From: Desulfuromonas sp.
GTDB lineage: Bacteria; Desulfobacterota; Desulfuromonadia; Desulfuromonadales; Geopsychrobacteraceae
Reading direction: 5' to 3'
Length of the DNA stretch: 36,668 nt
Assembly: GCA_002869665.1 (NCBI GenBank)
Contig: PKUG01000099.1
Location: forward strand, 1 to 36,668
In this document: positions 13,144-16,895 of the stretch, piece by piece
Layout of the letters: each line of letters starts with the position of its first letter
Numbering within the stretch: the stretch's first letter is position 1
The notes under the pieces: generated by a model
The model's database searches: none
What the model was told of the DNA's origin: nothing
What the model saw: only the letters and a program-made list of their open reading frames with translations
Program-made: the position numbers and the translations under genes

Positions 13144-13408
13144 TTTTTCGCCGAAAATCTGTGCAGATTCACTCCGAAGTCACGGAATCTGATCACCCAG
13201 CGGAGGATACCCTTCGGGAAAATAGCGGGCAAGTTTTTTCCCCATTAACTTTTCGTCATCTCCTAGCATTGGAACCACCTGCGGGCGTTATCATGAAATT
13301 GTGAGGTTGGTGCAACAGGCCTCATGTGGACGGTGAGCCGTTGTGTGTTCGTTTGTCAGTCATGACAAGTCCTCGGCGGCCATCATTGGAAAAGGAAGGA
13401 GGCCGATC

Positions 13409-13810
13409 ATGGCCTATTGTCTCAATACGAATGTGACGGGTGATTTCAACTCAGCCATGGTCAGCGTCAGGGAGAAACTGGCGGCGGCCGGCTTCGGCGT
13501 CCTCTCCGAAATCGACATCAGCGCGAAGATGAAGGAGAAACTGGGGGTCGACTTTCGCCCCTATATCATTCTTGGAGCCTGCAATCCTCCCTATGCGCAC
13601 AAGGCGCTGACTGCCGAACCCTATATCGGAACCATGCTCCCCTGTAACGTTATCGTTCAGGAATGGGAAGACGGTCGGGTGGAGGTCAGCGCCATCAACC
13701 CGGTTGCCTCGATGCAGGCGGTCGAGAATCCGGCCCTGATCGAGATCGCCGTGGTGATCCGTGACAAACTCCAGGGGGTGATCAAAGCGCTGCAGGTCGA
13801 GACGTCATGA
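13409..13810 (+). CDS. DUF302 family protein
   Basis: A 133-residue protein from the ATG at 13409, preceded by an excellent ribosome binding site (AAGGAAGGAGG); an upstream frame extension lacks one. The layout MAYCLNTNVTGDFNSAM, then LAAAGFGVLSEIDI and KEKLGVDFRPYIILGACNPP, is characteristic of DUF302, a small alpha/beta domain whose biochemical role is unsettled. There is no signal peptide, so it is cytoplasmic. It is divergent from mfd and converges on the Dcu transporter, with a shared terminator between them. The conserved GACNP segment carries a Cys. Function is not inferable beyond the family. Confidence 0.88.
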   Translation: MAYCLNTNVTGDFNSAMVSVREKLAAAGFGVLSEIDISAKMKEKLGVDFRPYIILGACNPPYAHKALTAEPYIGTMLPCNVIVQEWEDGRVEVSAINPVASMQAVENPALIEIAVVIRDKLQGVIKALQVETS

Positions 13811-13906: not shown

Positions 13907-15235
13907 TCAGCCGAGGATTACCATGGCGATGGCATAGCCGACCAGTGTGGCGACGAGGACTCCGACGAGGCCCGGCAGCATGAAGCTGTGGTTGAAGTAC
14001 CACTTGCCGATCTTGGTCGTTCCGGTCGTGTCGAAGGTGACCGTGGCAATATCGGACGGGTAGTTGGGGATGAAGAAATAGCCGTAGCATGAGGGCATGA
14101 TCCCGATCAGCAGCGCCGGGGAGAGGCCCAGCCCCAGGCCGACCGGCAGCATCATCCGGCAGGTTGCGGCCTGGCTGTTGATGACGATCGAGACGACGAA
14201 CATGGCCAGGGCGAAGGTCCAGGGGTAAGCGGTGACCATCTCGGTGATCGCGCCTTTGAAGCTGGGCATGGCGAACTTGAAGTAGGTGTCACTCATCCAG
14301 GCGATACCGAAGATTGCGATCGCCGCGACCATCCCCGACTTGAAGACGACCCCTTCCGGAACCTTGGAGGCCTTGGTCTTGGTCACCAGCAGGATCACGC
14401 CGCCGAAGGCCAGCATCATCATCTGGATGATGACCGACATGGCGATCGGTTTCTCCCCTTCGACCAGGGTCCGGATGCTCGGGACCATGGCGATAATGAC
14501 GATCACTACCAGGGCGAGGATGAACAGCAGCACCGAGTTACGTGCTGCGGCAGGGAGCTGTTCGCCAAGCGTGGTCGCCGTGGTCTCTTCGATCCGTTTT
14601 TTCCAGACCGGATCTTCGAGGCGCTTCTGGTATTCCGGGTCGTCTTCCAGTTCCTTGCCGCGGCGCAGGCTGTAGAGCGACATGGCGAACACGCCGATCA
14701 GGGTTGCCGGAATGGTGACCGAGAGGATCGACACCAGGGTGATGTTGCTGGCGATCCCGGAGAGTTGCGACAGGTAATAGACGACCGCCGCCGAGATCGG
14801 GCTGGCCGTGATCCCCATTTGCGACGCGACCGAAGAGGCTGCCATCGGGCGTTCCGGACGGATCCCGTTTTTCAGGGCGACGTCGCCGATGATCGGCATG
14901 ATCGAGTAGACGGCATGGCCGGTTCCGAGCATGAAGGTCATGGTGTAGGTACAGAGCGGACCGAGGATGGTGACCATTTTCGGTTTCGAGCGCAGCAGGC
15001 GCTCGGCGACCTGGAGCATGTACTTGAGACCGCCCGCCGCTTCGAGGATCGCGGCGCAGGTGACGACGGCGAGGATGATCAGCATGACGGTGATCGGCGG
15101 ACTGGTCGGCGGCATCTTGAAAACGAAGACTTCAATGACCAGGCCGATCCCGGAGACGACCCCGAGGCCGATCCCGCCGTAACGACTTCCCAGATAAAGC
15201 ATCAGCAGCAGAAACAGAAACTGGATGTACAACAT
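13907..15235 (-). CDS. Anaerobic C4-dicarboxylate carrier, Dcu family
   Basis: A 442-residue polytopic membrane protein with about ten to twelve hydrophobic segments. It opens MLYIQFLFLLLMLYLGSRYG, followed by FKMPPTSPPITVMLIILAVV and the conserved GTGHAVYSIMPIIGDVALK and SVASQMGITASPIS segments of DcuA/DcuB antiporters. Such carriers exchange fumarate, malate or aspartate for succinate during anaerobic growth, which would suit fumarate respiration. The DcuA/DcuB subtype cannot be decided by eye. AAAGGAG precedes the ATG. It is monocistronic, bounded downstream by the 13844-13886 terminator. The DcuSR-like pair at 24030-26334 is a plausible regulator, although nine kilobases away. Confidence 0.93.
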   Translation of the reverse strand: MLYIQFLFLLLMLYLGSRYGGIGLGVVSGIGLVIEVFVFKMPPTSPPITVMLIILAVVTCAAILEAAGGLKYMLQVAERLLRSKPKMVTILGPLCTYTMTFMLGTGHAVYSIMPIIGDVALKNGIRPERPMAASSVASQMGITASPISAAVVYYLSQLSGIASNITLVSILSVTIPATLIGVFAMSLYSLRRGKELEDDPEYQKRLEDPVWKKRIEETTATTLGEQLPAAARNSVLLFILALVVIVIIAMVPSIRTLVEGEKPIAMSVIIQMMMLAFGGVILLVTKTKASKVPEGVVFKSGMVAAIAIFGIAWMSDTYFKFAMPSFKGAITEMVTAYPWTFALAMFVVSIVINSQAATCRMMLPVGLGLGLSPALLIGIMPSCYGYFFIPNYPSDIATVTFDTTGTTKIGKWYFNHSFMLPGLVGVLVATLVGYAIAMVILG

Positions 15236-15473
15236 AGCGCGGCTCCTTTCGCGTTGCGGAACGTCACGGGGACGTTTGATTATCGTTAAGGAGACTCTAT
15301 CGCCGCGCTAACGCCTTGTATATAAAACGGATTTAAAGAGGATATTGTCTTTTGTGCCGATTGTGGTGATTGTGCTCACGGAGGGTGGACGAGAAGAAAA
15401 TGGCGGCAAAATGCCATGGATCACTTTACCGGTAATGATTTGCGATGTTATCGTCATACCTAGTAAGTCAGTT

Positions 15474-15563
15474 CTCGAAACGCCAAACCTGCCGAGAGAC
15501 AGGGACGGAAAGCGACGGGTCTTTCCAGGTTCAAACCACAAGACAGCCGGGCTGCCGAAGGAT
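15474..15563 (+). promoter_or_regulatory. GEMM-I-like (cyclic dinucleotide) riboswitch aptamer, variant
   Basis: The layout is that of the GEMM-I aptamer. A CAAACC start is followed by a P2 hairpin capped by a GAGA tetraloop (CCTGCC-GAGA-GACAGG, one mismatch). The GGGACG-AAAGC joining strand comes next, then a P3 stem (GTCTT at 15519-15523 with AAGAC at 15540-15544) topped by a GGTT/AACC hairpin, and finally AGCCGGGCTGCCGAAGG. Two bases differ from the usual core as I remember it: GCCAAACC instead of GGCAAACC, and GACGGAAAGC instead of GACGCAAAGC. The first change lies at the position expected to contact the ligand. It may therefore be a variant-specificity or damaged switch. It lies 90 bp ahead of the cupin gene. 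Confidence 0.8.
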
Positions 15564-15591
15564 AAAAACTTTCGGGCAGTCCGGCTTTTTT
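15545..15591 (+). terminator. Terminator expression platform of the GEMM-I-like riboswitch
   Basis: The 3' strand of the aptamer (15545-15561) pairs with 15569-15586 (CTTTCGGGCAGTCCGGCT) over about 17 bp with one G-T pair and one bulge, followed by six T. Aptamer P1 and this hairpin are mutually exclusive, so ligand binding should prevent termination and switch the cupin gene on. That direction is inferred from geometry. Confidence 0.8.
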
Positions 15592-15653
15592 CTTGGCTGC
15601 GAGACGGGCGGACTCCCGCAAGCAAACGCTTTCAGCACGTGGAGGATAAAACG

Positions 15654-16037
15654 ATGAGAATTGCAAAAGAGGATATTCCGGTCAGAATCGATGTGCCGGG
15701 GGCCACGGCCCGCCAGGTTAAAGAGTTCGGCGATGCAACGGGCTACGGGAAGATCGGCGGTGAATATTTTTCGTTCGCTGCCGGAACCGACATTGCCGGT
15801 CTGCTTGAGGGGTTGCAAGGGGATCTGTGCCAGTGCCCACACTGGGGCTACCTGATCGAAGGAAAGCTGACCGTCAGCTTTGCCGACGGTCAGGACGAAG
15901 TCGTTTCAACAAACGATATCTTCTATTGGCCTCCCGGACATACGGTCCAGGCCGAGGAAGATACGGAAATGGTTCTATTCAGCCCGCAGCATGAACATGG
16001 CCAGGTGATGGAGCATATTCTGGGCAAGCTTGGCTAA
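15654..16037 (+). CDS. Cupin-domain protein under riboswitch control
   Basis: A 127-residue protein from the ATG at 15654, which follows GGAGG at 15641-15645; the longer upstream frame runs through the riboswitch and is not coding. A single small cupin barrel is suggested by CPHWGYLIEGKLTVSFADG, with one metal-ligand-like His and the G-x-L-x-V strand, and later by TNDIFYWPPGHTVQAEEDTEMVLFSP. The second cupin motif retains PPGH. There is no signal peptide. Catalytic or signalling function is unknown. It is apparently monocistronic and converges on the stress-protein gene at 16068. Control by a cyclic-dinucleotide-type leader makes it a candidate effector of that signalling network. Confidence 0.85.
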   Translation: MRIAKEDIPVRIDVPGATARQVKEFGDATGYGKIGGEYFSFAAGTDIAGLLEGLQGDLCQCPHWGYLIEGKLTVSFADGQDEVVSTNDIFYWPPGHTVQAEEDTEMVLFSPQHEHGQVMEHILGKLG

Positions 16038-16067: not shown

Positions 16068-16895
16068 TCAACTGGCCGCTGTTTTGATCCAGTCGCATTT
16101 CGGTCCGACGACAAGCATGCTGTTCGGCAGATTGCTCTGGACCTTCTCCATCGTGCTGCCGAACAGGGTGTCGCGGATCAGTCCTTTGCCGTAGGCACCG
16201 AGCAGCACCAGGCTGTCGTGAGGAATGGAGTACAACTGTTCGACAAGATCCCCTGCCGACCAGAAGGTCCAGTCAAGGGAGGCGACCAACTCCCCGGAAA
16301 AGCCCTGGTCGAGCATCTGGACTTCGAACTCACGTCGACTCCCCTGGCTGAAGATACGTAGCGGAGTGTTGCTGCGCCTGCGGATTTCCAGGGCCAGGCG
16401 CAGTGCTGCGGCAGCATTGTCGGAGCCGCCGTAGAGGACGGCGAGGCTGTTCCAGGGTTTGAAAACCGGTGCCGGGAGGAAAATCGGAAAGTGGGCGCTC
16501 TGGACGATCCTGCGCACTTTCGAGCCGATCATCCCCAGGGCGATCTTGCGGGTATCGTCACTCATCGAGCGCGGACAGGTCATCAACGAAAAGTGAACCG
16601 GCAGGTCGGGCAGGGTGCTGGCGCTTTTGCTGACCGGTTGGACCAAGGAGTGCTTGATCCGGTAAGGGGCAAGAACCTCACGAATGTGCTCTTCTGCCGA
16701 GGCCGGGTCTGTCAGGTAGCTGCCATCCAGGTCGACCTGAACGACATCCCTATCGAAATAAAGGAGAAAACTTTTGCTTTCCGGCTGGTAGATCGCCAGC
16801 GGCATATTCAGCCGGGAGCAGAAATAGGCCGATTGCAATAGCGTTTCGCGGCCGAAGGGGGTATTGCGGAAGACGTGGAACAGCGGCTTGTTCAT
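16068..16895 (-). CDS. Universal stress protein-like protein
   Basis: A 275-residue cytoplasmic protein. The C-terminal half has the Usp ending LGAYGKGLIRDTLFGSTMEKV then NSMLVVGP, which resembles the ATP-binding G-x2-G-x(9)-G-S/T pattern of UspA-like domains. The N-terminal half is an alpha/beta domain that could be a second, divergent Usp module (GRETLLQSAYFCSRLNMPLAIY), giving the tandem layout of UspE-type proteins. It starts MNKPLFHVFRNTPFG. It is monocistronic and convergent with the cupin gene. Family placement is fairly secure from the C-terminal motif; the physiological trigger is not visible. Confidence 0.8.
   Translation of the reverse strand: MNKPLFHVFRNTPFGRETLLQSAYFCSRLNMPLAIYQPESKSFLLYFDRDVVQVDLDGSYLTDPASAEEHIREVLAPYRIKHSLVQPVSKSASTLPDLPVHFSLMTCPRSMSDDTRKIALGMIGSKVRRIVQSAHFPIFLPAPVFKPWNSLAVLYGGSDNAAAALRLALEIRRRSNTPLRIFSQGSRREFEVQMLDQGFSGELVASLDWTFWSAGDLVEQLYSIPHDSLVLLGAYGKGLIRDTLFGSTMEKVQSNLPNSMLVVGPKCDWIKTAAS

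Follow-up and report, generated by a model that had tools for sequence, protein, structure and literature searches.

A c-di-GMP-I riboswitch with a reversed inner P2 base pair, predicted to control a cupin gene in Desulfuromonas sp.

The window analysed here is a stretch of 36,668 nucleotides from Desulfuromonas sp. (contig PKUG01000099.1), in which an earlier note had described a GEMM-I-like riboswitch in front of a cupin gene. Two bases of its core departed from the usual pattern, and one of these was taken for the position that sets the choice between c-di-GMP and cGAMP. The locus therefore raises the question whether this element reads another ligand, has decayed, or is a c-di-GMP riboswitch in which a base pair has been turned round.

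Identity and extent of the aptamer

Positions 15472-15562 of the window contained a complete GEMM-I (c-di-GMP-I) aptamer, overlapping a strong intrinsic terminator at 15545-15591. The features of the locus, with the evidence for each, are:

15472..15562, + strand: c-di-GMP-I (GEMM-I) aptamer, P1-P2-P3 (Rfam matches to RF03167 and RF01051)
15482, + strand: G20, the base telling c-di-GMP from cGAMP, unchanged G (Rfam consensus alignment; role from PMC3764141, PMC7288161)
15483, + strand: position 21, C replacing G (Rfam alignment; pairs with 15508)
15508, + strand: position 46, G replacing C (Rfam alignment; covaries with 15483)
15509, + strand: A47, unchanged A, stacked between the ligand's two guanines (Rfam alignment; role from PMC3764141)
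15555, + strand: C92, which pairs with the ligand, unchanged C (Rfam alignment, model position 75, immediately 5' of the strand that closes P1; role from PMC3764141)
15545..15591, + strand: intrinsic terminator hairpin and U-run (the 3' strand of P3 and P1 serves as its 5' arm)
15654..16037, + strand: cupin-domain protein, 127 aa (Pfam Cupin_2; orthologues in 9 other genomes)

A search of the whole window against Rfam returned a single riboswitch. The best model was RF03167 (c-di-GMP-I-GGC; 67 bits, gathering cut-off 59, E = 6.6e-14), which matched 15473-15560 on the + strand, and RF01051 (c-di-GMP-I) scored 63.4 bits against a gathering cut-off of 35. These scores bear out the assignment to the GEMM-I type; the poor score against RF01051 that the earlier note had named as grounds for giving it up did not occur. 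The E-values, together with the conserved leader of related species, exclude a chance resemblance. The ends of P1 were set by hand, the stem being extended to U15472-A15562 with A15558 bulged. The GGGACGGAAAGC strand, the GNRA (GAGA) loop of P2 and the 3' strand of P3 were all in place, and the letters GCCAAACC (15482-15489) and GACGGAAAGC (15504-15513) had been read correctly.

Although RF03167 gave the highest score, membership of the GGC variant was rejected: at model position 37, which corresponds to position 47, the model consensus has G, our criterion for the variant, and the window has A15509. The match marks no variant, because a standard copy in the same genome (L002, with G21, C46 and A47) also exceeded the RF03167 cut-off, with 66.5 bits. 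The GGC name probably goes back to a 2017 paper on variant riboswitches.

The window copy resembled Vc2 of Vibrio cholerae (c-di-GMP-I, RF01051) in its fold, its three-stem layout and the GNRA loop of P2, and it had G20, C22-G45, C44, A47-A49 and C92 in common with it. Its inner P2 pair, however, was C21-G46, where Vc2 has G21-C46. The J1/2 of the window copy is presumably one base shorter than that of Vc2.

The reversed pair and the ligand-reading bases

The standard numbering was anchored on the C22-G45 pair, which is conserved, and on the run A47-A49 (PMC3764141), so that GGC(AAAC) begins with position 20 and the first A after GACGC is position 47; positions 22 and 45 in the window were C and G, respectively. 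Taking the changed C for the specificity position proved wrong by one base: position 20 was still G (15482) and the change was at position 21 (15483). Changed specificity by way of position 20 was rejected on this ground. According to a survey covering both structures and sequences of c-di-GMP-I, the ligand is recognised by G20, A47, A48 and C92; positions 21 and 46 are absent from the survey's highly conserved positions (PMC3764141). The ligand contacts G20, A47 and C92 were all present in the window (15482 G, 15509 A, 15555 C).

Positions 21 and 46 are paired with each other in the Rfam model and formed a C-G pair in the window. The suggestion that the G-to-C and C-to-G changes compensate each other was confirmed in the related copies. 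In 98 related genomes, with the rest of the motif at consensus, C21/G46 occurred 38 times and G21/C46 26 times, and the mixed combinations C/C and G/G occurred 0 and 0 times. The two positions thus covaried strictly (Fisher's exact test, p = 1.7e-18, a value made optimistic by shared ancestry), and because of these counts C21/G46 is to be regarded as an alternative, common Watson-Crick pair. Both bases do differ from the usual pattern, but the swap is not the rarity it had seemed, being the commoner form in the relatives. The two forms also co-occurred within single genomes, this one included.

When 84,980 species genomes were scanned for the C21/G46 form, at least 115 stretches of DNA carried it, the matches listed coming from Desulfobacterota, Gammaproteobacteria, Campylobacterota, Acidobacteriota, Nitrospirota and others. 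Several of these listed copies lay upstream of genes for surface or secreted proteins, which are typical GEMM targets; the copy in Vibrio jasicida preceded a gene for a large adhesin-like protein (named by reading its sequence).

An aptamer with an altered ligand, either cGAMP or another dinucleotide recognised through the changed core base, would suit a genome that has A20 switches of the cGAMP type and likely cGAMP-making enzymes (see below), and would suit the slightly higher score of the variant model. We nevertheless consider it very unlikely, with the specificity base G20 unchanged and A47 and C92 likewise, the changed pair a simple and very common reversal, and the standard copy L002 passing RF03167 as well. 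The GEMM-Ib cGAMP riboswitches of Geobacter (e.g. pilM) have the same scaffold and the strand-sharing terminator of an ON switch, but they carry A at position 20 where the window has G, which places the window copy outside the cGAMP class. As judged from the alignment, the two odd bases are a common swapped pair, with no change in the bases that read the ligand. This removes a false lead, the swap being a natural pair reversal and not a ligand-switching mutation. In molecular dynamics G21 and C46 were among the residues contributing to binding energy, and the swap could on that account tune affinity (PMC9049102).

Terminator, cupin gene and direction of control

The earlier note had the 3' strand of the aptamer shared with a terminator, and the fold agreed with this: 15540-15600 folded at -29.6 kcal/mol. 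The terminator pairs were kept in 8 other leaders, the pair 15550-15581 being A-U in those 8 aligned leaders and G-C in the window. Aptamer and terminator are mutually exclusive because of their common strand, which includes C92. In the mechanism we propose, the ligand-free RNA would form the terminator by pairing of AGCCGGGCUGCCGAAGG, the 3' strands of P3 and P1, with CUUUCGGGCAGUCCGGCU further downstream. With c-di-GMP bound, the aptamer would be held by G20, A47 and C92, these strands would remain in P1 and P3, and transcription would proceed into the cupin gene. C21-G46 would take the place of G21-C46 in the inner P2 helix, in the same role.

The cupin gene is presumably switched on by c-di-GMP, the layout being that of the pilM switch, an experimentally studied ON switch in which the ligand prevents termination (PMC9262584). 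The element is very probably a c-di-GMP-I riboswitch acting at transcription as an ON switch of this gene, with both ligand and direction predicted from sequence. The same c-di-GMP aptamer might instead act as an OFF switch or chiefly on translation, as the direction of control is itself deduced and other GEMM-I switches, Cd1 among them, are OFF switches (PMC9262584). This is most improbable, given that the 5' arm of the terminator is the 3' strand of the aptamer, so that the ligand should oppose termination, and that the terminator stops 62 bases short of the start codon. A promoter scan found no sigma-70-like site.

The downstream gene is indeed a cupin gene, with a Pfam match to Cupin_2 (E = 4.7e-6) whose 26.7 bits lie slightly below the cut-off of 27.2, and it is preceded by a GGAGG ribosome-binding site at 15641-15645. 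Searches of NCBIfam and of PDB sequences for clues to the biochemical role of the protein yielded nothing beyond weak matches. Orthologues were present in 10 of 195 genomes, this one included, the other nine having 54-80% identity. In five of the ten the aptamer lay directly upstream, always with C21/G46 and with the terminator at the same place, that is, in four genomes besides this one; upstream of the other five no aptamer was detectable. A copy that has simply decayed and lost ligand binding, to which a single C-A mismatch at 15492-15499 in P2 and the weakness of P1, which includes a G-U pair, might point, is close to negligible as an explanation and was rejected, since model scores are high, the ligand-contact bases are all intact, and the same leader is kept before the cupin gene in the four other species. 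The swap would then mark neither a variant with a new ligand nor decay, and we read the element as an ordinary, well-conserved c-di-GMP-I riboswitch in which one base pair is naturally reversed.

We found no report of a cupin target for a GEMM riboswitch in the literature searched. Because the genes under GEMM control form a large and disparate set (PMC7266159), a cupin target adds a member and not a new kind. In this bacterial family the small cupin protein probably belongs to the c-di-GMP regulon, a modest gain in annotation for a cell with six cGAMP-type switches. Leaders closely like that of the window, with a C21/G46 aptamer and a terminator, were found in relatives (L176, L177 and L179) before DUF1326-like, DsrE-like and AhpD-like genes (families named by reading the sequences). 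Together with the cupin gene these may form a regulon of small proteins. That this C21-G46 subgroup differs measurably from G21-C46 copies in affinity or ligand preference and forms a separate regulon is highly unlikely.

Neighbouring genes in the window encode a DUF302 protein (13343-13810, + strand), a DcuA/DcuB-type C4-dicarboxylate transporter (13907-15235, - strand) and a universal-stress-protein-like product (16068-16895, - strand).

Other switches and cGAMP signalling in the same genome

The genome contained nine GEMM-I copies, three with G20 (the window copy, L002 and L007) and six with A20, the cGAMP-type base. Two of its 16 GGDEF-family matches (L197 and L198) had Ser in the GHxxGS motif, at a position aligned by motif and not by structure, where canonical enzymes have Asp. 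Asp at that position separates canonical enzymes from the Hypr, cGAMP-making ones (PMC6456294), and L197 and L198 are likely to be Hypr enzymes. The cell probably uses both c-di-GMP and cGAMP as signals, and the bases of the window copy assign it to the c-di-GMP side. Given the six A20 switches and the two Ser-containing GGDEF proteins, cross-talk of the window switch with cGAMP is possible. Three of the A20 switches (L003, L004 and L006) lay within 3.4 kb on one contig (G000:C61:3637-7006), and two of these three preceded response-regulator-like genes, as read from the sequences.
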